From assembly GCF_000264995.1 (NCBI RefSeq), contig NW_006767438.1, positions 2,023,675 through 2,087,674 of the forward strand: a stretch of 64,000 bases of DNA, read 5' to 3'. Position numbers and translations under genes: made by a program. This document shows, piece by piece, positions 29 to 58,116 of the stretch. Each line of letters starts with the position of its first letter. Within the stretch, counting starts at the first letter, position 1. Below the pieces are notes generated by a model. That model saw only the letters and a program-made list of their open reading frames with translations. It had not been told where the DNA came from and made no database searches. This DNA is from Punctularia strigosozonata HHB-11173 SS5 (Eukaryota > Basidiomycota > Agaricomycetes > Corticiales > Punctulariaceae).

Positions 29-721
29 ATGTCTTCGACAGCGACCCCCGATGATACTCCTCTGGGACCATTTCCTTATACGCTGACAGTGCGGCTCCCC
101 AAGCGCACTTCCCCCTCTCCCGAACCTGATCCTCTCAATTCCCCGTGGTACCGGTACTTCATCTCACCGAACCAAGATGACTATAGCAAAAGGGTACGCC
201 AATTGTGACATCTCAACCAACGTGGTCGACTTATCTCTGGAACATGCCAGGAAACCTTCAAAGCACTTTCGACCTTCGTGCCATTCCGTCATTTGCCCCC
301 AGAGCTCGACACGCTCTCGACAGTCCAAAAGCCCCAACCACCCGGACTTTTACTCGCCATACCTCTCGAACACGATACGATCCTCTCATACGCGACCAAG
401 CGTGGTTTGGAGGTCTATATCAGCAAGAAAACCTTCGATCTTGCCACCGCAGCCGAGAAGGACAACCCGGACGTCATCAAGAGCACGGTTTCGACACTTC
501 ATTGCGTGTTGGGATACTTACGCGACTGTCTGTGGTCGGAGCTCCGATTCCGGTGTGGCTACGGCAGGCCCGACCCCACGAATCCATTCCTGCCGCTGTG
601 GGTTCTCTGCTCCAACTACGATCCGGTCGACGATCGACCGACCGAGGAAGAGTTAAGTTTGATACGGGAAGAGCTCGGACTCGACGACGACATTAAATGG
701 TATCTGGCCGTGACCGCTTGA
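29..721 (+). CDS. Family A protein, subtype A1, copy 1 (uncharacterised, 211 aa)
   Basis: Two exons, 29-193 and 251-721, joined in phase 0 across a 57-nt GT-AG intron; the start is the ATG at 29. I do not recognise the family. Within the window it matches the genes at 48755-49442, 55988-56678, 6421-7092 and 54336-55007. Shared landmarks are a PWYRY motif near residue 40, an LSTF-x-PF-x2-LPPELD motif just after the intron, a block around LGIPL, a G-Y-G-x-PDP motif, the block CSN-x-DP-x4-RP, and a C-terminal EELG...WYL. There is no signal peptide or membrane segment. This copy is the most divergent of the A1 subtype (for example FISPNQ where others have LILPEQ), but the frame is open throughout. 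The left edge lies 28 nt before the ATG, so the promoter is outside the window. Confidence 0.72.
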
Positions 722-3210: not shown

Positions 3211-3834
3211 CTCCCCTGTTAAGTCGTCGTGCCGGCATCCAGGTTTCACGCTCTCGATTGTTTCTGCTCGTTATGTTGCTTTATATGTTACCGCGATACC
3301 TGATCATCTATGTCATACATTCACTCATTGTATAATAACCGCACGCGTACATGCTCACTCTCATCCGCGAGCCGGATCATTTGGTTTTTGATCGCGAGAA
3401 ATGTCAACGGCGATGAGTACATCGCGATTCAGGATGTTGTCGCCGACGGCAACTCCCGGCGCACGTCGCGCAGCACGTCTTATTCGTCTTCCTCTCCTCC
3501 CAGCTGAAACTTGATTAACACATCTTCGAATTCGATCGACCTGAGGTCAAACCTATCCGGCGTCTATCAAAACGATGCAGTTTGCGGGCGTGGGGTCATC
3601 TTATCTATGCTCGGTTCCGAATCGGACACCTGCCTTGTATTATCTCTTTATCTACGCCCACCGGTAGACGATGCGTCTCAAAGGTTTAAAGCCCGAGGGC
3701 CTTGCGGTCAGCGTCGACTCGGCGGCGCACTTCGTGTTCGAAGTCGCGTCTTCGCTTCGACATTGGCTATGGAATACCATGGCCCGGGAGGCCGTTCCTG
3801 TCTCTTTGGGTCCTGTGCTCTCTCTGATCTTGGT
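3211..3834. other. Intergenic, no gene seen
   Basis: Short open frames only, none with a recognisable motif or a paralog in the window. Confidence 0.45.
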
Positions 3835-4310
3835 CCACGCAAGGAGTATTCTCGAATCTCTATGGAACCGATACATCGTCCTGCTGCAACATAACGGGAG
3901 GGCAACGTGTGCTACTTCTGACGTTCATCCATGCCTGACGCTAGTTGATTGTACTCAGAGGATGGGGAGATTTTGTCGAAGTTTAAGCCGTTCACGCAGC
4001 TGCCGACGCAGCTCGACCCCTCATTTTGGCATCCAGCTGAAGCCCACGTAGCTGTTCCTCGGAATTTTTCGCGCCGAGGATATGATCATCAAATATGAAT
4101 TGTTGATGTCCTCTGTGTTCAAGGGACATAGAGGCGTGCCTGTGGCGCCATCCTCGCTTCGAAATAGGCTGGGGTAACTCAGATCCCAGAGATCCATATG
4201 CCCTTATGAGTGCTCTGCTCCAACTTCGACTTGCTTGACATGCGCCCGTCATCGGAGCAGCTCGCTGAAACATGAGAGGAGCTTGGGCTGGACGAAATTA
4301 CTTATGTGGC
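3835..4310 (+). pseudogene. Decayed family A (subtype A1) copy
   Basis: A broken relative of the A1 genes. Recognisable pieces in order: a remnant of the PWYRY block (LWNRYIVL), then a degenerate intron that still matches the introns of the two right-hand A1 genes base for base over much of its length, then ILSKFKPFTQLPTQLDP, and near the end CSNFDLLDMRPSSEQLAE and EELGLDE. Several stops and frame changes separate these pieces, so no intact product is possible. It lies convergent to the family B gene at 4484-5561. Because the intron is recognisable, the copy arose by DNA duplication and not through a spliced RNA. Confidence 0.75.
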
Positions 4311-4483: not shown

Positions 4484-5561
4484 TCACCGGTACCGCCATT
4501 GCTGCCAGATTTCTGGCGCAGCCGGTTCAGGCGTAAACCAGTCGCCCTGTAGCGTCAACGACTTGACTCGGTGCTGAATGATGTACTGTATAATCTGCTT
4601 GAACTCTACGGAAAACTCGTCGTGATTGCTAAAGGCGAAGAGATCGTGTATGCCTGAAGCGGTTGTCTGGGTTTCCTTCGGCTTCTTTCGTGGACTCCGC
4701 TGCGTAGCCTTGTTCGAGCGAGTGGCCGGCTTCTCCTTAGCTCCAGGCGACATGTGATTCCTGTTGAAGTGCTGTAGGGAGAAACTGGAGCCAACACAGC
4801 AAAAGAAGTGTAGATCTTGGACCTCGGGGTAGTAAGCGAATGCGACGGGCGCCTGATCTTTCACCTGATCCCACATGTCCTTCACGGTTTGACGAGCTGC
4901 GGCTTGCTTGTGAGTCACCGAGTCTGTTCTCGAGAAACTGGCGCGTTTGAGCTCGAGTAGTAGCAAGGCCTCGGTGTCGACTCTTCCATCGGAAGCACGT
5001 CGCCGGATTTCTACTCCGAAGTCCGGAATTCGACGACGACTCTGCAGATGATAGCTCTCCGAGTCGACCGTGCCTTTGAGGATCTCGATGACCCTTTGGG
5101 GACATACCATTACGTCGTACGTGTTCAGGCATAGAGCGAGGCCGTTGAGTGTGTGAACCCAAAGCTCATACCAAGGATTTTCGAGGCGATGACCTCTGGC
5201 GTGCATCAGAGCAGAACCGAGACTGGAAAAATATCGGTCCTTGTTGACGGTGATAAAATTTGCGCTAAGTACGCCCAACGAGTGTATTCTCCTATTATGG
5301 TGCTGAGTCAGCCTGACACTCGTCGCGAACGTCGGAAAAGGGCTAATGAACCTTAACTGTCCATCGCTCGACGGAATAAGTCTTCCTTGTTGCTGAGCTG
5401 GTATTGATGACCACCTGAATGCCAGCGGTGGCGTCGTCCGCAATTGTCTTCACCGACTTGGATATCTCCTGCTGTGCATGAGCAACGGAACTGTTGATAA
5501 CGAACTGAACGCTCACCACATCACTGTCAAGGATTTGCACGACAATGGTGTACGGCGGCAT
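4484..5561 (-). CDS. Family B protein, copy 1: PD-(D/E)XK nuclease-like (325 aa)
   Basis: Exons on the minus strand 5561-5517, 5471-5358 and 5302-4484, phase 0 throughout. The start is the ATG at 5561 (MPPYT), supported by the same start in the paralog at 50510. The protein has a PD-(D/E)XK-like arrangement: PDFGVEIRR (Asp147) followed about 23 residues later by LLELK (Glu170, Lys172). After it comes a Q-x2-x-QA-x3-F-x-YYP...CCVGSSFSL block, as in fungal proteins with restriction-endonuclease-like folds. A basic Lys/Arg/Ser/Thr-rich stretch (about residues 226-252) could be a nuclear signal. The C-terminus (FKQIIQYIIQ...LQGDWFTP) is shared with copy 2. Nuclease activity is inferred from motif spacing only. 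It lies divergent from the A2 gene at 6421. Without the upstream exons the reading frame can be followed to 5443, but no ATG start fits there. Confidence 0.7.
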
Positions 5562-5639
5562 ACTGTGATGAACGGCTAGGACGAGAGCTGAAAATGCGAG
5601 TTGGAGATGCACGAGGGTTCGAGCGAGGCGAAAGTCGTA

Positions 5640-5646
5640 TTTTATA
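5640..5646 (-). promoter_or_regulatory. TATA box of family B copy 1
   Basis: TATAAAA on the minus strand, about 79 bp upstream of the ATG at 5561. The other family B gene also has TATAAAA upstream of its ATG. Confidence 0.5.
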
Positions 5647-6420
5647 CGGAGATCGTGCTGCAATCTATAAACAGATTAAGCATCACCGCCTAACAGCGAA
5701 TGGTCTGGCCCGATTATCAACATCAAGTACGCGGCCTACGAGTGTGTCCCGCGTCGTTGGGTTCGCATACGGGATTCCCATTGTCCTTGCCAGCGATCGA
5801 GAGCTGCACTAATTCGGTGCAAGAAACGATTATTTTCTTCTATGACCAGTCAATCTACAATATTGGACACTTGTTTGTGACCGTTCTGGAATGATCGTTG
5901 TTAGACAATGGTTTCAGGAATCATGGCACTGCTCACACCCTCACAGTATGTGGCGTCCCTACCGCATCTCGCAATCATCCGAGTGAGAGACTCCAAGGCT
6001 TCTAGTAATACTGATAGAAGGAGATAAGAGTTCATCATTGTTCCGAGAAAGACCTGTCGTCCCAGGCGAATCGACATGGGTTGCGTGGCGGCTGATACTT
6101 TCGACTTCGGACAGTGGATGACAGCGCCCGTGGAATATAAAATCCTGTTCTGATCTCAAATGGGTAGTTATATTCGTGTTCATGTTCTTCCGCATCCGGA
6201 ACAAGCCCAAGGTTTTCTGGCGGAAATCAAGCTCCCGACCATGATAGGCTCTGACGAGTGAGGAGGACCGTGAGCACAATCCCGGAGTTGGCCGCGTAAT
6301 CGGCTTCTCTCCAACCAACGTCACGCGGAACTGGGACGTACTTATACCTACCGTTCTCCACCACGTAGCTATCCCGAGATCCTTCTACCGCGTCCTGGCC
6401 CTATACACCGGACCGCTAAC
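5647..6420. other. Divergent intergenic region between family B copy 1 and family A2 copy 1
   Basis: About 0.8 kb with no supported gene. It contains the promoters of two divergent genes. I see no obvious shared motif on the two sides beyond the TATA box of the B gene. Confidence 0.5.
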
Positions 6421-7092
6421 ATGACTTCTCAAGACTGCGCGACGGAACTCTCCCCCACAACTCACACCAAAGCTGCTCCTGCTACCGACAGCCAGTCTCC
6501 AATTATCAATCTATCCTGGTATCGGTTTCTTATGCTTCCGGAATCTGAGCAAAAGGACCTGGTACGTGGCCCCGTGCTTATATTATGGACTCTTCTACCA
6601 AGTGTTCTTGATGTCCAGGATGCAATGGCAATTCTTTCAACATTCGAGCCCCTCGACCATCTACCACAGGAGCTCGACGGGAGCACCGGCACCGAAACGC
6701 CGCCGCCGGAGCTATTCCTTGGCATACCTCTCGACACCGACATGATTTTTGACTACGCGTACAAATACGAGCTTTATGCCTACGTAGACAAGAGGACGAT
6801 GGGTCCGCTGGGGTGGGTTCCACCGGAAGAAGTCACGGAGAACACAGTCATCAACGTCGACTCTACGACGTACCAGGTGTACGACGACATCCAGGAATAC
6901 CTGTGGCCGCACGTTTCCTTCAAGACGGGGTATGGAAATCCCGATCCCGAGACGCCATTTGTTCCCATCTTTTCCCTTTGCTCCAACCGGGATCCACTCG
7001 ACAAGCGACCGAGTGCGGAGACAATAGCGGAAATACGAGCGGAGTTCGGTCTCAAGGAAGATCCTAAATGGTACTTGACCATGTTTGCATGA
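6421..7092 (+). CDS. Family A protein, subtype A2, copy 1 (uncharacterised, 204 aa)
   Basis: Exons 6421-6561 and 6619-7092, phase 0, with a 57-nt intron (GTACGT...CCAG) at the same place as in the A1 genes. The intron length is a multiple of three and it contains no stop, so retention would give a 223-aa protein. Residues share the A1 landmarks (LSTFEPLDHLP-x-ELD, LFLGIPLD, DKRTMGPLGW, GYGNPDP, CSNRDPLDKRPSAE, KWYL). The N-terminus differs from A1 and is Ser/Thr/Ala-rich. Its closest relative in the window is the gene at 54336-55007, and similarity continues about 50-60 nt past the stop codon. The gene is divergent from family B copy 1. Function unknown. Confidence 0.75.
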   Translation: MTSQDCATELSPTTHTKAAPATDSQSPIINLSWYRFLMLPESEQKDLVRGPVLILWTLLPSVLDVQDAMAILSTFEPLDHLPQELDGSTGTETPPPELFLGIPLDTDMIFDYAYKYELYAYVDKRTMGPLGWVPPEEVTENTVINVDSTTYQVYDDIQEYLWPHVSFKTGYGNPDPETPFVPIFSLCSNRDPLDKRPSAETIAEIRAEFGLKEDPKWYLTMFA

Positions 7093-42160: not shown

Positions 42161-44684
42161 ATGCCCGTGCCCGACCTCGTTCGCGAGTCGTTCGTCGGCC
42201 AATGCATCTACTCCTTCTCCGGCCACCGCCTTTTCCAGTACCAGGAAGAAAAACCCGGGTTCGTCCTCCCCGCCAAGTACGTCAAGGCTGGTCAGCTCGA
42301 GGCCAGCAAGGACGACGAGAAGCCGTCGCAGGAGGGCGGGCATGAGGTGACACGCACGCAGTCGCACGTCTCACAGGCGAGTACGGCGGCGAAGAGTGCG
42401 CGCGCGCCGACGCTCGTGGGTGACGGCGAACGTCCGTTAGTGGCCGACCAGGAGGCGCCGCCGGTGCCCGGCAGCGACGCAGAGAAGCGGGCGGTGATGT
42501 CCCAGGCGGAGCTGAAGGACGAGGAGAAGGAGAAGTGGGAGGATCCGAAGTGGCTGAGGACCGTCGATTGGTATGGACCGGACGACCCGGAGTGTCCGAG
42601 GAACGTACGTCGCCCCGTCTGCTGCCTTCGGTTCGCGCTCGGTTTGACCGGTTCCGCGTGTAGTGGTCGTTCGCGAAGAAGTGCTTCGTGACGTTCGATA
42701 TTTGCCTCATCACATTTGCCATTTACATTGGATCGTGAGTCCCAGGTCTCTTCTCATGGCATTACCCTGCTCAAAGACCTCGACCCTCCAGAGCCATATA
42801 CTCGCCCGGTATCCTCTTCGTCGCCGAAGAGTTCAATGTATCGCCCGTAGCCGCTACCCTCGGGTACGTAGTTCACGCTTTCCATCATGTCGCGCGTTGC
42901 TGACAACACCCTCTTAGCATCACGATGTTCGTCCTCGGCTACGGCATCGGACCCATGTTCCTCTCTCCCTTCTCGGAGGTTCCCCAACTCGGCAGGACGA
43001 GCACGTACATCATCACCCTCTTCCTCTTCGTCGTGCTCCAGATCCCGACCGCGCTCGCCAAGAACCTCGGCACGCTCCTCGCGATCCGGTACGTGCCTTC
43101 CATCACCCCTCTCATCCTTTCTGACGATCCCGTGGCACACTTGCGGCGTAACAGGTTCTTGGCAGGGTTCATCGGCTCCCCGCCGCTCGCGACGGGCGGC
43201 GCGAGTCTGGCGGATATGTGGGGCCCGGCGGATATGGCCATCGTCATGGGCCTCTGGGGCTGCTCGGCCGTGTGCGGGCCCGTGCTCGGTCCTTTACTCG
43301 GTGCGTGCTTCCGCATGTGATGTCGACCCAGATGGCCGCTGACTAGGCGATCGCGGTGCTCGACAGGCGGGTTCGCCGCGACGGCGAAGGGGTGGACGTG
43401 GACGATCTGGATTTTGATGTGGCTCGCGGGCGCGGCGCTCGTGTTCCTCGCCGTGTTCTTGCCCGAGACGAGCTCGTCCGCGTAAGTCCCCCCATCCCCC
43501 CTCCCCCGCGTTTTCAGTCATCGGAACGGCCCTGTGCGACGACGCTCATCCCGCGGTGCTGCCTCTCGATCAGGATATTGTATCGCCGCGCGGTGCGCCT
43601 GCGCAAGCTGACGGGGAACGAGTCGCTCCGGTCCCAGGGCGAGCTCGACGCCGAGTTTTACACGGCGAACGAGGTCGTGCAGATGACGATGATCCGGCCG
43701 TTCGTGCTCGGTTTCACGGAGCCGATCGTCGCGGCGTGGAACGTGTACGTCGCGCTGTTGTACGGTGCGTTTTGCCCTTTTCTCGTGGAATGAAAGCGGG
43801 TGATAGCACGTTGTGCTGACATGGCGGATTTCTGGGTTATATTCTAAGGCATCTTGTATATCTGGATCTCGAGCTTTGATCTCATCTTTATCGAGATTTA
43901 TGGGTTCAACCTGGGCGAGAACGGGTTGGCGTTTATGGTGAGCCTCTCCCTTTTTTTCTCCCTTGTCTTTCTGCTGTGTACCGGTTTGGCTGACGGGAGG
44001 GCGTTGCGGCTTAACAGGGTGTGGCGATCGGCGCGATCATCGGCCTGTTCCTCATGATCCCGTACGTGAACCGGTACATCCGGCCCAAGTTTGCGAACGG
44101 GGACGAGGGTGAGTCCTCCGCGTCGGTGTCGTCGGTTTTTTGGATCGCCGGTTGACGTATCTTGGCTCGTCGTAGACTTCCCGCCCGAGGCACGTCTGCC
44201 GCCCGCGATGGTGGGCGCGATCTTGCTCCCCGCCTCGTTGTTCTGGTTCGGATGGACGGCGCGCGCGTCGATCCACTGGATTGGTACGTCCTTCCTCTCG
44301 CTCTCTCTCCCGCTCTCCTCTTCCCCTAAAAGAAATACTGACGCGACTCGCACGCCAGTCCCGATCATCGCGACGGTGTTCTACTCCATCGGCACCTTCT
44401 TCGTGTTCCAAGCCGGGCTCAACTACCTGCACGACTGCTACCCGCGCTACCTCGCGAGCGTGTTCGCCGGGAACGACCTCTTCCGGTCCGTGCTCGGCGC
44501 CGCGTTCCCCGTCTTCGCCAACGCGTTCTTCAAGAACCTGGGGATCGGCAAGGCGTGCAGCGTGCTGGGGGGTATATCGGTCGCGATGATCCCGATCCCG
44601 TGGGTGTTGTGGACGTATGGGCCGAGGATCAGGGCGATGAGCAAGTGGTCGGGGTACGGCGCGGGCGCGCCGGCGATGCACTAG
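42161..44684 (+). CDS. DHA1-type MFS transporter, tandem copy 1 (607 aa)
   Basis: Eleven exons: 42161-42604, 42664-42734, 42792-42863, 42918-43088, 43155-43300, 43367-43481, 43574-43764, 43849-43937, 44018-44108, 44176-44283, 44359-44684 (1824 nt). A cytosolic N-terminus of about 140 residues ends in [20 protein letters not shown], typical of fungal 12-helix drug:proton antiporters (DHA1). Then come [34 protein letters not shown]-x-[23 protein letters not shown] and [13 protein letters not shown] (the motif C region of antiporters). Also present are [31 protein letters not shown], the [11 protein letters not shown] loop and [30 protein letters not shown]. Probably exports small organic compounds across the plasma membrane. 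The last exon is uninterrupted, whereas copy 2 has an extra intron there. Confidence 0.88.
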
Positions 44685-45431
44685 AGAGAGAGGGACCGAT
44701 TGTGACGTTTGGTGGGTGGCAGGCTCGAGAGAGAGGAGCTGACGCTGACGGCCTCGCGATAGGTTCCAGCTGTCGAAGTGCGTCGACCATCGCGTAGAAA
44801 CACCGGCTTAGATGGGATCGACCAAGGCTATTATTTTTCCGCCTCTTCTTTTTCCGATGCTATGAAATATATTAGGGCTCGGTATGTCTTGTTCCTCGAT
44901 ATTGGCGATGAATTTCGCGATTGCTTTCCTTTCTGTCCGTTGCATCCGGTTTGTATATACGCAGTGGATCTGCTTGTAGGAATAGGGAGCGCGATCACCC
45001 ATGCTTAGTTTGGATTGATTATATTGGAACGCAAGCTTGTATTGCCTCCAATGATTTTCTTTTGCCTTGGTATGTAGCTATGTTGCCCATCGATGAGGCC
45101 TTGGACGACGCGACCTATGGTGCGCAAGGAAGCTGTTCCGAAAAAGGCACGAAATGACCCAAACGCGGGAATAGGCGCATCAACCCGCCGCGCGTGACGT
45201 CACGTCCAGCGCGCGCTCAACCCTCTTCCGGGATCCGCATAGGTTGCAACCCGCCCATCGCTCCGCTGACACAGGACCGACGACATCCGGGCAGACATGA
45301 CCAACCATGTCAAATATCCGCGTTAACACCTCAGGCCGAATGACTTGGTTACTTCCAAGCTGTATATTCCCCACCGACACACCCCCCCCCCCGGTACGCG
45401 AGCGACAGGGTCCTGAAGAGACAAGTTTAAT
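44685..45431. other. Intergenic between the tandem MFS genes
   Basis: About 0.75 kb, no gene seen. Confidence 0.45.
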
Positions 45432-48017
45432 ATGCCCGTGTTCGATCTCGTACGCGAGTCCTTCCTCGGACAGGCGGTCTACTACGCTTCCAGACGGCGA
45501 TGGCTGCAGTACGCCGAGGAGAAGCCTGGCTTCGAGCTGCCGGCGCGCTACCGGCGTGCGCAGGACCAGCAGCAAGATCAACAGCAGCAGCAGCAGCAGC
45601 AACAGCAACAACATCAGTCAACGCTCGACGTTGACCGTGCATCGTCGGAGGGGCGGAGCACTCGGGCGCCTACGCTCGTGGATAACACCGAAACTGCTCG
45701 ATCGAAGTCGCGCCCGGTTTCCGGCGTGGATGCGGAGAAGCAGCAGGTCGCCTACAGGGAGAGCACGAAGCCCGAGGAGGTCGAGATGTGGGACGATCCG
45801 CAATGGTTGAGGACCGTCGATTGGTACGGCCCCGATGACCCAGAGTGTCCGATGAACGTGAGCTCGCTCCTTTCTCCACCGCCTGGACGCAAATTGACAA
45901 ATGGTGCGACGTGAAGTGGTCGTTCTCGAAGAAGTGTTTCGTCACGTTCGACATCTGCTTCATCACCTTTTCAATCTACATCGGCTCGTGCGTGACGTTT
46001 TTCTCCTTGATCTTGTACAGAACTCACGTATCGATCATCCTGCCAACAGTGCGATCTACTCCCCTGGTATTCCCTACGTCGCCCAAGACTTCGGCGTGTC
46101 GGATGTGGCCGCGACTCTTGGGTACTTACATAGGTCCCTCTCACGTATATACGTCCGTGCCTCATGCAGTCTTTCACAGGATCACGATGTTCGTCATTGG
46201 CTACGGCATCGGTCCCATGTTTCTCTCTCCTCTGTCCGAAATCCCGCAATTTGGTCGGACGAGCACGTACATCATCACCCTCGCCCTCTTCGTCATCCTC
46301 CAGGTGCCTACCGCGCTCAGCAAGAACCTCGGCGCGCTCCTTCCCCTCCGGTACGCCGGAAATCCGCCCCTCCCATCACCCCTTTCCTCCCATCATCGCA
46401 CCCCCCAATCTGATCACAACCGGTTCTCAGGTTCCTGGCCGGGTTCGTAGGCTCGCCCCCGCTCGCGACCGGCGGCGCGAGTCTGGCGGATATGTGGGGC
46501 CCCGCCGACCGCGCGATCGCGATCGGCCTCTGGGGCTGCGCCGCCGTGAGCGGGCCCGTGCTCGGACCGCTGCTCGGTACGTGTGTCCCTCGCCCGGACT
46601 TCGTTAGATGCGGGCTGACACCGAAACGCTGGGATGGGCTGAATTCATAGGCGGGTTCGCGGCGCAGGCCGAGGGCTGGACGTGGACGATCTGGATCTTG
46701 CTCTGGCTCTCGGGCTTCTCGCTCGCGTTTCTGACCGTGTTGTTGCCGGAGACGAGCGCGTCGGCGTGCGTCGCTATCCCTTCTGCTCTGAATGTACCCT
46801 TCGAGTCGAAATTCCGTTTTATCTGATCTCTCTATTCGGGACCCTCTACAGGATACTGTACCGACGAGCGGTGCGCCTGCGTCGGCTGACGGGGAATGAG
46901 GCGCTGCGCTCGCACGGCGAGCTCGAGGCGGAGCATTTCACGGCGAGGGAGGTGGCGATGATGACGCTCGTCCGGCCGTTCGTCCTCGGGTTCACGGAGC
47001 CGATCGTCGCGGCGTGGAACGTGTACATCGCCCTGCTTTACGGTGCGTGTTGGAAAACGTTTCCCCGGGTGAGCGGGAGTTGCTGATCGGTGGTATGAAT
47101 ATACCCACAGGGATACTGTATATCTGGATCTCGAGCTACGAGATCATCTTTGTGGAGATATATGGGTTCAACCTAGGCGAGAACGGGCTCGCGTTTATGG
47201 TGGGCTTTTTTTCTCCTCCGTCTCCGTAGAAGTGTTTTTTTTTTGGGGTGGATCAAAGGACGTTGGGGCTGATGTTTGATGGTAGGGTTTGTTCCTCGGC
47301 GCGATCATTGCGTTTGCGCTCCTCGTGCCGTACGTGAATCGTTACGTGCGGCCCAAGTTTGCGAATGGGGAAGAAAGTGCGTAGAGGGGCCCGCTGCCGT
47401 GCAATGTGAATGCGCCGCTCACGCGTGCCCCCCCCCCCCCTTTAGATTTTCCGCCCGAAGCGCGGCTACCCCCGGCCCTCGTCGGCGCCATCCTCCTGCC
47501 CCTCTCGCTGTTTTGGTTCGGCTGGACCTCGCGCGCGTCGATACACTGGATCGGTGAGTTGACCTCATTTCTTCCGTTCCACATGCTCAACATGTGTCTT
47601 GCTCCTCGCCCAGTCCCGATCATCGCGACGCTGTTCTACTCCATCGGGACCTTCTTCGTCTTCCAGGCCGGGCTCAACTATCTCCAGGACTGTTACCCGC
47701 GCCACGTCGCGAGCGTGTTCGCCGGGAACGACCTCTTCCGATCCTGCCTCGGCGCCGCTTTCCCGATCTTTGCGAGCGCGTTTTTCAGGAACTTGGGAGT
47801 CGGCAAGGCGTGCAGCGTGCTGGGGGGTATATCGGTGGCGATGATCCCGATTCCGGTGGTGCTGTGAGTTTCGTTTTTTTTCTTTCTTGATCGTTGTGAT
47901 GAGTGGGTGGTGAGAGGGCGTGGGGCTGATTGGTTGGACCGATGTCGTAGGTGGAAATATGGGCCGAAGATACGCGCGATGAGCAAGTATTCGGGGTTCA
48001 AGGGCCCGATGCACTAG
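45432..48017 (+). CDS. DHA1-type MFS transporter, tandem copy 2 (598 aa)
   Basis: Twelve exons: 45432-45857, 45917-45987, 46050-46121, 46180-46350, 46431-46576, 46651-46765, 46852-47042, 47111-47199, 47286-47376, 47446-47553, 47614-47863, 47951-48017 (1797 nt). Exons 2-10 have exactly the same lengths as in copy 1. The N-terminus shares the start ([14 protein letters not shown] against [14 protein letters not shown]), then has a glutamine run encoded by CAG/CAA repeats at about 45568-45620 that copy 1 lacks. All transporter blocks are intact ([56 protein letters not shown]). The last intron (47864-47950) is absent from copy 1 and present in the truncated third copy near 53.5 kb, so that fragment came from this gene. 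Confidence 0.88.
45568..45620 (+). repeat. CAG/CAA trinucleotide run encoding polyglutamine
   Basis: Within exon 1 of the second MFS gene; encodes a glutamine-rich stretch of about 18 residues in the cytosolic N-terminus. Length variation between strains would be expected. Confidence 0.85.
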
Positions 48018-48754: not shown

Positions 48755-49442
48755 TCAGGCGTCCATAGATAAATACCACATAATATCGTCCACCCCGAGC
48801 TCCTTTCGCAGTTCAGCGAGCTGCTCCGCTGTCGGACGCTGGTCGAGCGGGTCGAAGTTGGAGCAAAATACCCATAAGGGCATACACGAGGTCCGGGGAT
48901 CAGGATTGCCATAGCCAAGATCGAAGCGAAGATAATGCCACATGCACGTCTTTATGTCCTTGAACACGAAGTCGGCCGTCGAGTCGACGTTTATTACGAG
49001 ATCGGGGGTGAGCTCGTGGCGAGGCTTCCAGCCCACAAAATCCATCGTCCGCTCGTTGAAGTAGGAAAATAGGTCGTACTTGGCAGCGTAGTCGACGATG
49101 AAGTCCTCGTCGAGCGGTACGCCAAGGAACAGCTCCGGGGGTTTCGACTTCGGGGTGTCTGAGTGAGGATCGAGCTCCAGTGGTAGTTGAGTGAACGGCT
49201 CAAATGTCGACAAGATTTCCGACTTCTGTAAGAATAACAAAATCAGCGTCAGGCATAATTTCACGTCAGAAGTTGCGTACATCGCCCCTCCGCTCTTGTT
49301 CTGGTAGGGTGAGGTACTGGTACCAAGGAGAATCCAGAACAGCAGGCTCGTGCCTTGGGCCAGTGCGTTTCGGTAGCTGCACTGATAGCCCACCGAGGGG
49401 CTCTTGCGAAGCGCCGTCGTTGTCGTAATCTGCTAGCGACAT
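48755..49442 (-). CDS. Family A protein, subtype A1, copy 2 (uncharacterised, 210 aa)
   Basis: Exons on the minus strand 49442-49281 and 49225-48755, phase 0, with a 55-nt intron. The ATG at 49442 (MSLADYDND) matches the start of the copy at 56678 (MSLSDHNDY). All family landmarks are intact: LDSPWYQYL, LSTFEPFTQLPLELDP, ELFLGVPLDEDFIVDYAAKYDL, FNERTMDFVGWKPRHE, GYGNPDPRTS, CSNFDPLDQRPTAEQL and ELGVDDIMWYL. It is divergent from family B copy 2 (start 50510). Family unknown; no membrane segment or signal peptide. Confidence 0.77.
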
Positions 49443-50509
49443 AGCGATTGTGGTTATGGTTCTCGGCAGAGATGGGGGTTCATAAGTAGGTTGGCGACCA
49501 GCTCGCGCGTGACCCATGGTTGGTGAAGCGTGTCACATGACTGTGAGGTACAATTCTCACGCTCACACCTTCTCGATCGGTTGTGTGGCGCATCCATTGT
49601 CTGGTACTTATTGCCCTATATCACCTGAATTTCCCCGACCGGCTCCGCACACTCCGTGTTCTATATGGAGCCATGATAAGCAACTGATCCTTTTTGGAAC
49701 AATGGCGGGCCTCTGCGGGAAGCCGACGCGATTGCCGGTCTCGCTTAACGCAGAGCGAAGTTCATGGGCAAAAAAGAACCTGCAAGCATCCGTCCTTATG
49801 CAGAACAAAGGGACTGACAATTATGGATTGGCTCTATAGGGAAGTCTTGATACCGGTGTGAGTATTGCGTACGTGATGAGATGTGCCTCATTCGCATTCG
49901 CGAATCGAAGATAATTTATCTCCGTGTTGACTTCGGATAATAGGGCCTCTTTCGCTTGCTTCGTCAATCTGACCAGTGACAAGATCTTGCAGGCATACTT
50001 CTGGCACGATGTTGTACCCGCGTAACACTGCACTTTCTGCTGATATTCGTCGAAATTTCATAGAAAGGCCTTGCACCCAATGACTGAGCTACAATTGTAC
50101 GGCATATGCATCAGAGCGGCTGCGATATTGTGAGAATGGGCTGCGTTTATTTGGAAATATAATATGCGGTCTTTTGCACTAACTTGAGTCCCGCGAGAAT
50201 TGATGCAGCCATAGGCGATGTTCTGCATCGTGAACATCGCTAGTTTTCGTCACAAAGGGATCTCCTAATCGGAAATGGAGCATGAGAGATGTAATCTGTG
50301 ACTATACGTGATCCGAAGATGTGCACTGCCGGTGATCGGCATAGATGCACGGTGGACTCTTTGCGATCGGCCTATCTGCGGAACGAAATGTAATTGTCTT
50401 TCTCCACACTCCTTTTCACTTATGGAAGCATATCTACAGCAGCGCAGTATAAAACACGGTGCTCAGCATGCGTAGTGGTCAGCACTACTCGTGCATACCG
50501 TTTCATTCA
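49443..50509. other. Divergent intergenic region, family A1 copy 2 / family B copy 2
   Basis: About 1.07 kb. Similarity to the flank of the other A1 gene (beyond 56678) fades after roughly 30-60 nt. That is consistent with an insertion carrying the B gene between here and about 52.05 kb. No other gene seen. Confidence 0.5.
50448..50454 (+). promoter_or_regulatory. TATA box of family B copy 2
   Basis: TATAAAA, 56 bp upstream of the ATG at 50510, mirroring the TATA box of copy 1. Confidence 0.5.
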
Positions 50510-51591
50510 ATGCCTCCGTACACGGTTCTTGTCAGGATACTGGACGGAAACCAGGCGAGTTTTTGCTCTCGCAGGTCAACGATAGTATGTATTAATGCTC
50601 TGCGCAGGTGAAGACCGAGACTAGAAGATCGATCGATGCTGATAGCAAGACCCTCCTCCAATTTCTGTACGAGTCAGCGTCCGACACTGCCAAGTACGTA
50701 GCTCTTCATACGTGGAGAATACTGGTGTGTGCCTCTTCGTGACCGTATCAATGCTTGAGCTAAGCCCATTGTCGTCCATAGGGCAGTAAATTCTACGAGC
50801 GCACCGAGAGCTCGAGCTTCATGATGCTCACGAGGGGCCGATTTTTCGCGGGCTTAAACATGGCCAATGATTATGCCTCATCTCGCAACTTGGAGTGCTA
50901 CTGGTACGAGATTTGGGACCGCACGCTCAACGTTCTTGCGATGTCTATGAACGACTACAACGTGCTTGTTTGCCCGCAGTGCACCGTTGAGAGGCTTGAG
51001 GGGACTCTAGACAAGAATGGAGCGCCCCTTCCAGCTCAGCGCCGCTCGCCCGACTTCGGGGTGGAGGTCCGCCGTTTTTCGCACTCGAGACAAGCTCTAG
51101 TGTCCGAGCCTGTACTCCTCGCGGAGGTCAAACGCCCGTCCAAACCTCCTGGACCCAACAGATCCCACGATATTGCGGAGGACATGAAGAGGATGCACAA
51201 ACAGGTCAAGCAGCAGGCCCACCTTTCATTCGACTACTATCCGGCGGCTAACGACATCCATGTCCTTTGCTGCGTCGGCTCCGCATTCTCATTGTTGCAT
51301 TTCAAGAGGTCAGACATGTCGCCGCAAGTGGTGGTCCGTCGATACACGCGTCTGCATCCAGCCCCGGAGCCTAACCCTGTGGAGGAAAAGCCGCAGCTCA
51401 CCACTTCTCTTTATTCGAAAGTATACGAGCTACTTGGTCCCCAAGGCGACCAATTCTCGACGGAGTTCATGCAGATAATTCAGTATATCCTGCTACAGCG
51501 TGGGAAAACACTACAGCTTCAGGGAGACTGGTTCACGCCAGACCCTCTGCTATCGCAGCGGTGGATTGCGTCAAACCAGAGAGTGATCTAG
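50510..51591 (+). CDS. Family B protein, copy 2: PD-(D/E)XK nuclease-like (323 aa)
   Basis: Three exons: 50510-50554, 50608-50724, 50782-51591 (972 nt), phase 0. The start MPPYTVLVRILD matches copy 1 (MPPYTIVVQILD). The first intron appears to use a GC donor (GCGAGT); the alternatives run into stops. Motif residues are intact: Asp145 in SPDFGVEVRR, Glu169 and Lys171 in LLAEVKRP. A Q-rich helix-like block follows (MHKQVKQQAHLSFDYYP), then CCVGSAFSLLHF and the shared C-terminus (FMQIIQYILLQRGKTLQLQGDWFTP). The basic region of copy 1 is replaced by a Pro/Glu-rich stretch. Nuclease function is inferred from the motif alone. It could equally be an inactive binding fold. Confidence 0.72.
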
Positions 51592-52049
51592 CAGGACTTG
51601 TACCTTCATCGCGATGAATGCTCTAATTAGAGGGTAGGGCATTAATTGCTCCAATCATCTTAACACATTATCTTTCAAATTGTGTCTTCCGACTTCATGC
51701 ATTTCTCTCCGGCCAAGGGGTACGGTGCTGCTGGACGCAGCGTCTGCACGCATTATTTTCTCCTCGATTTGTACACATACATCAAGTAGTAGTGCGTAAA
51801 GGGGCAGATGTCTGTTCGCGGAAATTGATCCAGACTCCCTAAAAGCGACCAATGAGCTAGTCATTTAGGGCAGGAAAACGGCCATATCGGATGGAGGATC
51901 CCACGTAGCCTTTCCTGAAAGAGCCGTTTGGGAGTTTTCTGGATACGATTGCATCGCAGCACAATGTAGATCTAAAAAGGGCAGGAACAAGAATACCAGG
52001 GAAGAGCACCGATCAGCCCAGTAAATTGGCGTAGACGGCGTCTTGAACG
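51592..52049. other. Intergenic, no gene seen
   Basis: Downstream of family B copy 2, at the right end of the inferred insertion. Confidence 0.4.
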
Positions 52050-53080
52050 CCGTATGAGGCGCGAGCGTGGGAAAAGGGTCGTGCTAGTGCGCCGGTTCAC
52101 GCAGGTTCACGCTGTCCTTGGCGACCTCCCCGCCCATATTTCTCGCTCGCTCTCGATTAACTCGGTCATGCGGCGCTCGACTAAGGAGTACTTAGCGCAC
52201 GGAGCTCAGCGCCGCGCTCTCTATGCCATGGCCCTCGGTGCGTTACCCGCGTCTGCTCAGAACATATTTTGGGACTATCAGTGACTATAGTTCCGTCATA
52301 CAGCCCGCAAGCGCAAGTTGCCAGCAGCAGCTGAAGGGCTTAACGATGATACATTTGGCTCCGCCGCTGAAGTCGATCGGTTTCCCTTCGCGTTGGTTGC
52401 GTCGGGCGCACCTCCAGCGACCACAGCATCAGCCACGTCGTCTACGTCCACCTCCCAACCTTCGACTGTCCGGCGCGCTGCGTTGAGTACGTTGAGTAAC
52501 CAAGTCCTGCAATTTCAGCATAAAGCACCAGGATAGTGTCCATTGGCAAATCGAATGCGAGATCGGGATTAGAAAGGGGCGTACCGGGCGCAAGCTCACA
52601 TTTAGGATGACGAACGCTGTGCGCAACACGGTGGTCGCCAATCTATATCGACGTGGCGCAAGCCCGTGCGGGGCTCGATACGGTCACCGAGTTCTTTGCA
52701 CCGTTCAGAACAGGAAAGCATGAGCTGCTCGCGCAAGAGGGCTAGAACTACGTCCGCGAGTATTCACCGGTGCACTTCCTTCGTCTTCCTCTCCTAGACC
52801 ATGCACCTTATCCCCTAATGCGCTGAGCTCTAATGAATGTTTCTCTCCTCACATAGGTCTCCTCTGCACATTCGTCTGGTCACTCGCTCGCCATCCGCAT
52901 CTTCGGCGACTGCCCATGATGGGGCGTTTCCCCCGTCTGTTGCGCACCCTCTCGCTCCATATGCCCGTTACTGCCACGGATTCTGTGAATATGGCCGCCC
53001 TTTAACACGTCTTCTCCCTGCCGGCCATCGCCTCCAATATGCACGAGAGATTACCGAAACATATCTCAGTAGTGGTCCTC
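52050..53080 (+). pseudogene. Decayed gene X, copy 1
   Basis: Collinear with 56740-57790. Shared pieces include an Arg-rich start (CGGCGCTCGACTAAGGA region), the stretch encoding RKRK-x-P-x-AA and then SGAPPATTASAT, and a later block reading V-x-EFFAPF-x-TGKHELL. After these comes TTTCTCTCCTCACATAGG, which looks like an intron end. Stops and frameshifts occur in every frame, so no product is possible. I cannot name the ancestral gene. Confidence 0.6.
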
Positions 53081-53289: not shown

Positions 53290-53642
53290 GTGGTTCCAGG
53301 TGACGAAGCTCAACTACACCAAGACTGTTACCCGCTCCACGTCGCGAGCGTGTTTGCCTGGAACGACCTCTTCCGCCCCTGCCTCGGCGCCGCTTTCCCG
53401 ATTTCTGCGAGCACGTTTTCCAGGAACTTGGGAGTCGGCAAGGCGTGCAGCGTGTTGGGAGGGATCTCGATCGCAATGATCCCGTTCTGGTGGTGCTGTG
53501 AGTGCCTTTTTTTTCGTCGTTGCGACGAGTGGGGTGTGAGAGGGCGTGGAGTTGATTGGTTGGACTGATGTCGTAAGTGGAAATATGGGCCGAAGATACG
53601 CGCGATGAGCAAGTATTCGGGGTTCAAGGGCCCGATGCACTA
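53290..53642 (+). pseudogene. Truncated third copy of the DHA1 MFS gene (3' end only)
   Basis: Corresponds to the last two exons of the gene at 45432-48017: KTVTRSTSRACLPG-type frame-shifted start, then [40 protein letters not shown], then the last intron, then [21 protein letters not shown] and stop. The intron acceptor has changed (GTAG to GTAA). The first ten exons are absent. Because the last intron is present, the source was copy 2, not copy 1. Confidence 0.85.
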
Positions 53643-54015
53643 GAACATGTACGTGCGTGTCGAGTTGAACGTCGCGAAGTCTCCGGGAGTGGATGCTCAG
53701 GTGTCGACATAACAGCACCATCAAATTCCAACGGACAGCAGACGAACAAAGAGCACGACACCCCATCCACGCGCATAGTTCTATCATCAGTTATCGTATT
53801 ACTCACGATGCACTCGCATCATCGCGACACCTGAACATGTAGAAATCCCCATTGTACCATAGTGCAAAGCATTGCTGGCGCGTCTGCGCCTTGATCTCTG
53901 TACCCTTCTTCCATCGCACTAAGTATTCGCAAGTTAAGCTTGAGATTGTATCAGGGGTGGCGTCTTCTGACGTTTCGAATCGGCGCTCGCCAGAGCCGGT
54001 GTCCAAGTCTCGCCG
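53643..54015 (+). repeat. Segmental repeat, copy 2 (downstream of the MFS fragment)
   Basis: Matches 48018-48420. Similarity stops abruptly near 54015, where DNA carrying the A2 gene begins. Confidence 0.8.
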
Positions 54016-55544
54016 TTAATCGTCTGTGAGATTGGAGGAGGAAGGCGATGAATCGCAGGGTATACGTTGCACATATAACTGAGTAAGGTATGAGCACACG
54101 ACAAAAGCATCAAGATTTGCATACATCAACAACATCAGGAAAACCCGGAATTGATAAAAACCTCCTAAAACGTACTAAAACGTGCTCATTTAGTAGCTTT
54201 AGAGGGTTTCGGTACCCAATAAGCGACTCTTTCGATAGTCCGATTTTTCCTGATGAATCAGAACCTCGCATGCCATGAGGACAACTCTGAACAGCGTCGA
54301 CGAACGCCCGCAACTCCGCATTTCGCTGGCGTGCGTCATGCGAACATGGACAAGTACCATTTAGGGTCTTCCTTGAGACCGAACTCCGCTCGTATTTCTG
54401 CTATCTTCTCCGCACTCGGTCGCTTGTCGAGCGGATCCCGGTTGGAGCAAAGGGAGAAGATGGAAACAAACGGCATATTGGGATCGGGATTGCCATACCC
54501 CGTCTTAAAGGTAACGTGCGGCCACAGGTACTCCTGGATATCGTCATACACCTGATACCTTGTAGAGTCGACATTGATGACTGTGTTCGACGTGACCTCT
54601 TCCGGGGGAACCCACCCCAGCGGACCCATCGTCCTCTTGTCTACGTATGCATAGAGCTCGTATTTATACGCATAGTCGAAAATCATGTCGGTGTCGAGAG
54701 GTATGCCAAGGAATAGCTCCGGCAGCGGCGTTTCGGTGCCGGTGCTCCCGTCGAGCTCCTGGGGTAGATGGTCGAGGGGCTCAAATGTTGAAAGAATTGC
54801 CATTTCATCCTGGACGTCAAGAACACTTGGTACAGAAGTCCAAATTCTAAATACGGGGCCACGTACCAGGTCCTTTTGCTCAGACTCCGGAAGCAGGAGA
54901 AATCGATACCAGGGTAGATGGATAATTTGAGACTGGCTGTCGGTGGTAGCACCAGATTCGGTCTGAGGGGTAGAGGAGACTTTCATAGTAGCTTCATGAG
55001 AAGCCATGTCAACGGTTCAGTGTATATGGCAAGGAGACAGTAGCAGGACCTCCAGACCGTAACGTTGGCAGGAGAGAAACCGGGAAACTCCGGGTTTGTG
55101 CTCACGGTCTCCCTCGCTGGCTGCATCGACACTCGCGAGCACTCACGCTGGCAGAGCATATTATGCTCGGGAGTTTGGTTTTCTCTGTCCTCCCAGGGCA
55201 CGGAAACTCGTTAAGCGTGTTGACCTTCCCGCCTATGGTGATTTATATTGGAATACCAGGGAAAAAACCTCCCTTTCCTGAACGTATTGGTCATATGAGT
55301 ATCATTCATATGACACAGTATGCTAGCTATGCTAGCTAAGATGTACGGAAACTCCTCGTGAATGAGGTGAAGGCATGTGCGCATGCTTGAGGGAGGATAC
55401 CGGGGATTAGGTATCGATATGGTTTGCCGCGACCCACCAGTATATAGTCGCTCGATGTGAGCAATCTTGTATCATACCGCTCGCGCTGTGGCGTCATGAT
55501 CGAGCTAGAGCCGCTACTGCAGCAATCGGCACCTCCGGCTTAAA
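54016..55544. other. Inferred insertion of about 1.5 kb carrying a family A2 gene
   Basis: The repeat shared with the 48-kb locus stops near 54015 and resumes near 55545. The intervening DNA has no counterpart at the 48-kb locus and holds one intact gene (54336-55007). I see no transposon ends or long terminal inverted repeats, so the mechanism is unknown. Confidence 0.55.
54336..55007 (-). CDS. Family A protein, subtype A2, copy 2 (uncharacterised, 204 aa)
   Basis: Exons on the minus strand 55007-54867 and 54809-54336, phase 0. Exon lengths (141 and 474 nt) and the 57-nt intron are identical in size to the gene at 6421. The intron is again stop-free and in frame. Residues are very close to copy 1 across the whole protein (for example IPLDTDMIFDYAYKYELYAYVDKRTMGPLGW), and similarity extends past the stop codon. 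The N-terminus is the most variable part (MASHEATMKVSS against MTSQDCATELSP). Function unknown. Confidence 0.77.
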   Translation of the reverse strand: MASHEATMKVSSTPQTESGATTDSQSQIIHLPWYRFLLLPESEQKDLVRGPVFRIWTSVPSVLDVQDEMAILSTFEPLDHLPQELDGSTGTETPLPELFLGIPLDTDMIFDYAYKYELYAYVDKRTMGPLGWVPPEEVTSNTVINVDSTRYQVYDDIQEYLWPHVTFKTGYGNPDPNMPFVSIFSLCSNRDPLDKRPSAEKIAEIRAEFGLKEDPKWYLSMFA

Positions 55545-55987: not shown

Positions 55988-56678
55988 TCAGGCGGAAGTC
56001 GATAAGTACCACATGATATCGCTCAGCCCGAGCTCTTTTCGTAGTTCAGCGATGTGCTCCGCTGTCGGACGCTCGTCGAGCGGATCGAAGTTGGAGCAAA
56101 ACGCCCATAAAGGCATACATGAGTTCCGGGGATCAGGGTTGCCATAGCTGGTCTCGAAGCGAACATGCTGCCACAGGCACGCCTTTATGTCCTTGAACAC
56201 ATAATCGGCTGTTGCATCAAGGCTGATTAGGAGATCGGGGGTGACTTCGTGGCGAGGCTTCCAGCCCACAAAATCCAGCGTGCGCTGATCGATATAAACA
56301 AGTAAGTCGTACTTGGCAGCGTAGTTGACGATGAAGTCCTCGTCGAGCGGTATGCCAAGGAACAGCTCTGGGGGTTTCGACTTCGGGGTGTCTGAATGAG
56401 GGTCGAGCTGCGGTGGTAGTTGGCTGAACGGCTCGAATGTCGACAAGATCTCCTTCTTCTGTAAGCACAACAACATCAGCGTCGAACATGGTTCCATGTC
56501 AGGAGTGGCGTACATTTCCCCTCCGCTCTTGTTCTGGTAGTATGAGATACCGATACCACGGAGAATCCAAAACAGCAGGCTCGTGGGCCGGGACGATGCA
56601 TTTTGGTAGCTGCACGAATAGCCTTCCGAGTGGCTCTTTCAAAGCGTCGTCGTAGTCGTTGTGATCTGACAGCGACAT
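55988..56678 (-). CDS. Family A protein, subtype A1, copy 3 (uncharacterised, 211 aa)
   Basis: Exons on the minus strand 56678-56514 and 56458-55988, phase 0, 55-nt intron. Closest to the copy at 48755-49442: same start region, EPLGRLFVQLPK, AVLDSPWYRYLILPEQERRG, LSTFEPFSQLPPQLDPHSDTPK, FLGIPLDEDFIVNYAAKYDL, GWKPRHEVTPDLLI, CS-NFDPLDERPTAEHIAEL and IMWYL. The second exon is 471 nt in all three A1 genes. The intron sequences of the two right-hand copies are alignable, which shows recent DNA-level duplication. Function unknown. Confidence 0.77.
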
Positions 56679-56739: not shown

Positions 56740-57790
56740 GTGGGAAAAAAGATCGTACGAGCGAATTCGCAGATCGATGCGGCAGGCGCGAGTTCAGGCT
56801 GACCTCGGCGACTTCTACGATGGCCTCGTATATTTCTCGTTCGCTCGGCCATGCGGCGCTTGACTGAGGATGAATCTCGTCAAACGCGTTCAGCGCCGCG
56901 TTCTCTACACCACGGCTACTTATCGGTGCGTCGCACGCATCTGCTCAAAATTTCAGTGGCGACCATCATTGACGGCGGTGTCGGTATATAGCCCGCAAGC
57001 GCAAGTCGCCTACAGCAGCTCAAGGGTTTGGCTACGATCTATGTGGCGCCGACGCTGAATACGAGCAGTCCCCTTTTGGGTTGGCCGGGTCGGGTGCACC
57101 TCCAGCGACTACAGCATCAGCCACGTTCCAAGCTTCGACTGGCCAGAACGCGAGCTTTGGTTTCTATAGGCTGTACGAGCACGTCGCACAGCGTATCGGA
57201 CCCGAGCCTCCTATTCAGGATGCGACGAGCGCCGTGCGCAGTACGGTGTTCACCGACCTATTCGACTTGGCGTAGACCCCGGCGGAGCTCGAGAATGTCA
57301 CCCAGCTCTTCGCATCCTTCTGGACAGGAAAGCACGTGCTGCACGCGTACCAGGGCGAGAACGTCGTTCGTGAGTACTCACCTCCTTCATCCTCCTCCCC
57401 GCATGTATGTGTCTATTGCACCGAGTGCTAATGAGCGTTTCTCTCCTCACATAGGCCGCTGCTGCAAACTTGGCTCACTCACCATCTGCATCTTCGGCGA
57501 CCGCCCATCCCACGGTGTTTCACATCTTCTCGCTCCGGACACCCGTTCCCGCTACGGACATCGTAAACATGAACCGCCCTCTAACGCGTCTCCGCCCTGC
57601 CGGCTATCGCCTCCAACTTCCCCTCCTCGTGGTCTCCGCGTGCTACGAAGCCGCAAGCATGCACGCGTGTGCGATTGCCGCCCCTCTATTTTCACGTTTG
57701 TGGGAGCTGGTGGCGGAGACAGAACCAAAGTTGGTACGCGTGCCGCGCCATCCGGAGTAGAACCAGAGGCTGATGCAGAGGAAGCCTGAT
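56740..57790 (+). pseudogene. Decayed gene X, copy 2
   Basis: Collinear with 52050-53080 and better preserved. Open pieces read ARKRKSPTAAQGFGYDLCG, then GSGAPPATTASATFQAS, then RLYEHVAQRIG, then TPAELENVTQLFASFWTGKH. After an intron-like boundary near 57455 come CCKLGSLTICIFGDRPSHGV and a final VRVPRHPE. Stops separate the pieces. The ancestral function is not recognised. Confidence 0.6.
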
Positions 57791-58116
57791 GCGGCGAGTG
57801 TGGATTTATGGATAGTCGAGGCGAGCTATGTGGAGCCGATACAAACGGGATTACAACTCGTTGCGAAACCGGACGCGACCCTATTTCTGTCCCTATAAGC
57901 TGCGCTACGTCCGAATATATTATGTCTCCAACTACGCTAACTCTTCTATGGAAAACCAATCTTCGCAAACAAGTTCTGATTGTGCCTGATTGCCAACCTC
58001 CATTGCTGTACATGCTGGTTGCTGCGCCATAATTCTCTGCCGCGAGTTCGGTGAGAGATTCTGTACACTTTCAGGTTAACTTCTCCATGTCTTGACACCC
58101 AAAAGACTCACAGGTA
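57791..58116. other. Intergenic, no gene seen
   Basis: Short 3' region between the gene X remnant and the NLR gene. Confidence 0.4.

Follow-up and report, generated by a model that had tools for sequence, protein, structure and literature searches.

A divergently transcribed pair of gene families in Punctularia strigosozonata, a PD-(D/E)XK-like protein and a small partner, as a candidate toxin-antidote unit

The window analysed here, a stretch of 64,000 nucleotides at C6:2023675-2087674 in a genome of 33.6 Mb and 32 contigs, contains two pairs of genes that are transcribed divergently. Each pair joins a gene for a small protein (family A) to a gene for a nuclease-like protein (family B). These two divergent pairs had been described in an earlier note on the same DNA, and all of the starts given there, 5561 (-)/6421 (+) and 49442 (-)/50510 (+), proved correct. 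The genes, relics, and intergenic regions concerned are the following, in window positions.

29-721, forward strand: A0, an A-family gene, B partner not found
3632-3821, forward strand: A relic, nearest to A copy L014
3967-4305, forward strand: A relic, nearest to A4, with stops and frame changes
4484-5561, reverse strand: B1, nuclease-like gene with its ATG at 5561 and a main exon of about 5272-4484, divergent neighbour A2
Upstream of the B1 main exon, reverse strand: short 5' exon(s) of B1, splice sites uncertain
5562-6420, unstranded: B1-A2 intergenic region, 859 bp between starts
6421-7092, forward strand: A2, gene for a small acidic protein; exon 1, then an intron and the main exon (6616-7092)
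48755-49442, reverse strand: A1, single-intron gene of the A family, start at 49442, divergent neighbour B2
49443-50509, unstranded: A1-B2 intergenic region, 1067 bp between starts
50510-51591, forward strand: B2, nuclease-like gene, ATG at 50510, main exon about 50791-51591
52136-53044, forward strand: relic of a further gene (gene X), downstream of B2
54336-55007, reverse strand: A3, A-family gene and duplicate of A2, B partner not found
55988-56678, reverse strand: A4, A-family gene with a gene X relic head to head, B partner not found
56806-57853, forward strand: gene X relic, head to head with A4

In A-family genes a short exon 1 precedes a main exon that is about 155 codons long; in B-family genes the main exon has about 260 codons and follows one or more short 5' exons whose splice sites are uncertain. 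The probable intron of A2 is 66 bp long and in-frame, and its main exon encodes a protein segment with a net charge of -18.4. The main exon of B1 is open and retains a D...E-x-K motif and a Gln. The main exons of A1 and A2 are 54% identical and B1 and B2 share 43% identity across 256 aa; A2 and A3 are 94% identical. Likeness between the two A-B intergenic regions is limited to a block on the A-proximal side that spans about 45 columns (8/100 shuffles score as high), and an upstream block of the B1-A2 region is also present at A3 (0/100 shuffles). Elsewhere in the window are a gene for a protein with two ribonuclease H1 N-terminal domains (1747-2325; PF01693, E 7.2e-34), two tandem genes (42161-47867) that are transporter-like by resemblance and about 73% identical, the second of which has left a relic at 53308-53654, and same-strand genes for NACHT-type and WD40-repeat proteins (58451-62428), possibly a single split NLR gene.

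Family A is present in many copies. A query of the genome with the main exon of A2 returned at least 21 matches of at least 110 aa, plus fragments, with at least 8 of the long matches at the C6 end, at least 12 on C16, and at least 1 on C22; a second A query gave a similar distribution plus one fragment on C8. Since the genome search scored the best candidates, the copy counts of A and B are lower bounds. Among 29 A-A pairs examined, the 28 that were scored have dN/dS values of 0.09 to 0.41, and by this sequence measure purifying selection acts on A and the copies look like real genes.

Queries with B1 and B2 matched only each other among the best candidates scored. Local tblastn and profile searches located parts of a third copy, B3, on C16 (408,243-408,365 and 408,412-408,624). 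The two pieces are in different frames and collinear with B, and their open stretches match at E 3.7e-5 and 0.0061. B3 is taken to be a remnant because its N-terminal part was not recognised; the A copy at C16:407,032-407,499 faces it head to head. No further B was found when 159.8 kb, comprising the window and the fetched flanks, were scanned locally with profiles. A segment of at least about 1 kb, over 90% identical, is repeated on C16 beside A copies and the B3 remnant (L036 4506-5599 and 8804-10000).

A query with the core of B1 also gave a weak match at C6:836,234 (28% identity, E 0.003), where a gene for a protein with a PD...E-C-K motif is head to head with one for a small protein resembling A. 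This locus is part of a second cluster at C6:741-903 kb, whose families we designate A' and B'. Genes for B' are present at 741, 836, 851, 856, and 871 kb, and two C-terminal-only B' remnants at 777 and 838 kb. One of the remnants, facing A' at C6:779,021, is in head-to-head orientation and the other (C6:837747-838073) is not. At least 21 A' matches of at least 110 aa were obtained, 3 of them on C8, and 5/21 contain a stop; a weak match of 112 aa (E 0.037) was excluded. The C8 locus (C8:1618517-1621373, L051) has three A' genes in tandem, all in one orientation, and no B was found in the vicinity. The end of contig C6 (2121797-2122796, L045) is formed by a GC-rich repeat and not by a telomere array.

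Profile-profile comparison (hhalign) matched A to A' with a probability of 93.1 (E 3.3e-7, 109 columns) and B to B' with a probability of 95.9 (E 6.1e-9, 152 columns), while the cross controls gave 0.1 for A versus B' and 0.5 for A' versus B. A profile built from B' alone recovered B1 (E 3.4e-9), B2 (6.6e-4), and a piece of B3 (0.0012); single A' proteins compared with the A profile were suggestive only. Homology of A with A' and of B with B' is thus supported at the level of sequence profiles. The head-to-head order has been kept even though A and A' share 15-18% identity and B and B' share 15-21%, suggesting that A-B units are old. The one testable B pair, the B' genes of p856 and p871, has a dN/dS of 0.27, which likewise shows purifying selection. 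Some proteins of A, A', and B have in common, at the N-terminus, a short strand-like stretch (PYTLTVRL, PPYTIVVQIL, IYTVTLSL; window 29-60, 5520-5561, and 50510-50550, and also L047 and L050), perhaps an interaction or header element common to these families.

This distribution changes part of the earlier description. The families were thought to be restricted to two accessory blocks, which does not hold, as A is also present on C16, on C22, and as a fragment on C8, A' and B' form the cluster at C6:741-903 kb, and A' extends to C8. Decayed copies of both families had been reported in the blocks; the relics recognised in the window, at 3632-3821 and 3967-4305, are of A only, and no decayed B was found there. 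Of B, the window contains two open copies.

At every core-bearing B locus found (8/8) the 5' neighbour, among genes of these families, is a divergent A-family gene, with gaps of 744 to 1572 bp between the aligned A and B parts. When A and B labels were shuffled within the three clusters, none of 100,000 shuffles reached 8 and 34 reached 7. This test omitted the two C-terminal-only B' remnants; with both included the count would be 9/10. Scattered, unlinked homologues had been set beforehand as the result that would speak against a pair, and within this genome the outcome is linkage. The association is one-sided. No core B was found for 34 of the 42 A-family matches of at least 110 aa that were listed (21 A and 21 A'); 8/42 have a head-to-head core B, and one more (C6:779,021) is opposite a C-terminal-only remnant. 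Conversely, 0/8 core B copies in this genome are without an A, and one C-terminal-only B' remnant has no head-to-head A. Four of the 42 (C6:747895, 749241, 759609, and 867602) were judged by genome-wide searches alone, and the flank of the C22 copy is partly masked.

Distances among the A partners and among the B partners agree closely (Mantel r 0.96, 4/5040 permutations) in the seven pairs with open main exons, from which the decayed C16 pair with B3 was excluded. The five A'-B' pairs alone give a Mantel r of 0.94 (2/120 permutations). Together with the linkage, these agreeing distances strengthen the earlier proposal of a genuine A-B pair, although linked duplication alone also yields parallel trees, which is a point against functional pairing. 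In p1 and p2, A (-18 and -15) and B (+7 and +3) carry complementary charges, a pattern that is not general; in p851, for example, A and B are both negative.

The identification of B as a PD-(D/E)XK-like protein has gained strength. The motif was confirmed by a sequence check of both B1 and B2, as had been claimed, and the D, the E-x-K, and a helix Gln are present at 8/8 B loci (split between two separate pieces in B3), where the catalytic-type motif reads PD plus ELK, EVK, or ECK. The structural model of B is poor (mean pLDDT 37.5), with a predicted order of helices and strands that is compatible with this superfamily. In Foldseek, 17 of the 20 best rows for the model were nucleases or nuclease-containing proteins, representing a handful of distinct proteins and none of them significant; the best VIA row was an unrelated secretion protein. 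The model of the A main exon is confident (pLDDT 88.5, pTM 0.78), and a structure search with the predicted fold gave no PDB match.

Sequence libraries gave little for either family. A and B had no match in Pfam or NCBIfam, and A' and B' had none in Pfam (the five B' at E up to 1). For spliced B1 and B2, Pfam returned nothing at E up to 10, PD-(D/E)XK models included, and these profiles may not cover this branch. PADLOC returned no match for the pair, PHROGs weak rows at chance level only (E 0.059 or worse), and IMG/VR scans with A and B no confirmed relative. A search for PF20516 found no match, with the controls unmatched as well. By sequence against the PDB, A2 reached E 0.095 at best, B1 had no match, and the B' profile reached 0.22. 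Three candidates were rejected: GPR128_GAIN for the N-terminal piece of B1 (E 0.015, below the cut-off) was taken as chance, and the matches of the A profile to chain N30 (0.0079, about 76 positions) and of the A' profile to an epimerase (0.021) were discarded, the profile of the sister family hitting an unrelated chain in each case. No account of such an A-B pair was found in the open-access papers searched.

Taken together, these sequence data are best explained by A and B being a real two-gene unit. Our preferred, though tentative, reading is that it joins a nuclease of the PD-(D/E)XK type to a small cognate partner, and that these are most likely a toxin and its antidote. B would be the nuclease, with presumed activity and toxicity, and A a small immunity protein that presumably binds and restrains it. 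The divergently transcribed pair would multiply through local duplication, with B tolerated only next to an A, whereas A could persist and multiply alone as an orphan antidote while B copies that are no longer needed decay. This reading rests on the observation that B was never found without A while A is often alone; physical linkage at all core B loci and a partner that occurs by itself are traits of toxin-antidote systems. The pair as a whole may have a selfish or self/non-self role.

It is rather unlikely, in our estimate, that A and B instead make up a single two-subunit nuclease complex, which might act in DNA processing or genome defence, with A a co-factor or targeting subunit and not an inhibitor, and with solo A copies serving other nucleases or new roles. 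Pairing, co-divergence, and conserved catalytic residues fit such a complex equally well. It does not, however, of itself predict the asymmetry between the many A copies without B and the lack of any core B without A.

Adjacency inherited through block duplication of two ancestral neighbours, with no functional coupling, is also unlikely, although it draws on the history of the C6 end, where the A copies clearly derive from segmental duplication and moved together with flanking DNA. Relics of the unrelated gene X travelled with several A copies in the same head-to-head arrangement. Gene X was seen in the window, at L037, and at L040 (401-1459), among other places; one copy, at C6:2105901-2106959, is open and head to head with A copy L014, and the other copies seen are decayed. 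At A4 and L013 the X relic is directly next to A, and at A1 about 2.5 kb including B2 separate A from the X relic. On its X side A1 retains a stretch that is present at L014 and absent from A4 and L013, so B would be as likely to have been lost in the A4 and L013 duplicates as gained at A1. Parallel distances are likewise expected from linked duplication alone. Against mere hitch-hiking, the A-B arrangement is retained at 8/8 loci down to 15-21% protein identity, whereas X has decayed except for one copy, and silent-site divergence is greater between B1 and B2 than between A1 and A2. Lower silent-site divergence in A than in B was obtained in three of three sister pairs (A1/A2 versus B1/B2, p856/p871, and p836/p851; pS for A/B in the three sister pairs 0.59/0.80, 0.36/0.53, and 0.67/0.79), and two other comparisons had A not less diverged than B. 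The lower values in A do not fit simple joint duplication, a point that also weighs against the preferred reading, unless gene conversion or unequal bias intervened; the numerous A copies may, for instance, have exchanged sequence by gene conversion.

Improbable, to our mind, is a mobile element of which A and B are two genes, the nuclease serving insertion and A being accessory. The multi-copy clusters with decayed copies recall such an element, as does the B2-bearing stretch of about 2.5 kb (about 49482-51996, including the A1-B2 intergenic region) between A1 and the X relic, which is missing in the duplicates A4 and L013, and an origin from mobile elements has been proposed for CR-type restriction endonucleases (REases) (PMC5289972). 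The copies are, however, concentrated in few clusters and not dispersed, the two B-bearing intergenic regions are unlike each other, and flank alignment revealed no shared ends. An allorecognition or NLR-linked effector module, the idea of the earlier note, is more improbable still: the NACHT and WD40 proteins at 58451-62428 are in the same window and multi-copy, diverging families suit self/non-self loci, but the link to the NLR neighbour is weak and looks incidental, since of 23 NACHT matches genome-wide one is on C6 and none is on C16, which has 12 A copies, and a match on C22, below the cut-off, and the A copy there are separated by about 121 kb.

If the toxin-antidote reading is extended, the families may represent a new multi-copy eukaryotic toxin-antidote family in which a PD-(D/E)XK nuclease killer forms co-diversifying divergent pairs with a small antidote that has a new fold, and orphan antidotes record past killers, a broader proposal that we consider doubtful. 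Were it true, a two-gene nuclease/antidote system would join the few known eukaryotic killers, and each B should be best blocked by its neighbouring A; the seven co-diverged pairs in one genome allow cognate combinations to be set directly against non-cognate ones. Should the toxin reading prove wrong, what is left is a conserved, divergently arranged pair of unannotated protein families, one of which (A) combines a confident model with no PDB match, and this becomes a directly testable problem.

Several known systems resemble the A-B pair in part. The MAT-A locus of agaricomycetes contains several divergently transcribed HD1/HD2 pairs of two unrelated proteins, an arrangement like that of A and B, but no homeodomain was matched in A or B by Pfam. 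With the PD-(D/E)XK superfamily, B shares the D...E-x-K motif, the helix Gln, and a compatible predicted helix/strand order, while matching no Pfam model of that superfamily. Crinkler-type (CR) REase effectors are similar in combining a restriction-endonuclease-type nuclease with a short N-terminal region in eukaryotic genomes, and the start of B might amount to a ubiquitin-like header. With an E limit of 10, however, spliced B1 and B2 matched no Crinkler model in Pfam; neither an NTPase nor a kinase domain was found, and B has a linked partner gene.

Spok spore killers of Podospora and Fusarium are multi-copy and are described as proteins in which a killing domain of nuclease-like character is joined to a resistance domain, with antidote-only copies known for both Spok and wtf (PMC12693581). 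Unlike the two separate, divergent A and B genes, Spok is a single protein with a kinase resistance domain; no Pfam kinase match was obtained in A, B, A', or B', and A matches no other Pfam family. In Wolbachia, the partner of CifA is CifB, a protein with PD-(D/E)XK-like domains (PMC7458348), so that CifA/CifB and CinA/CinB, like A and B, comprise two linked genes of which one has PD-(D/E)XK-type domains and the other is its partner; CinB was among the non-significant Foldseek rows for B. Those proteins are bacterial and much larger, and the predicted fold of A has no PDB match. As two divergent genes with no kinase and no match in the libraries searched, the A-B pair is neither Spok nor CifA/CifB.
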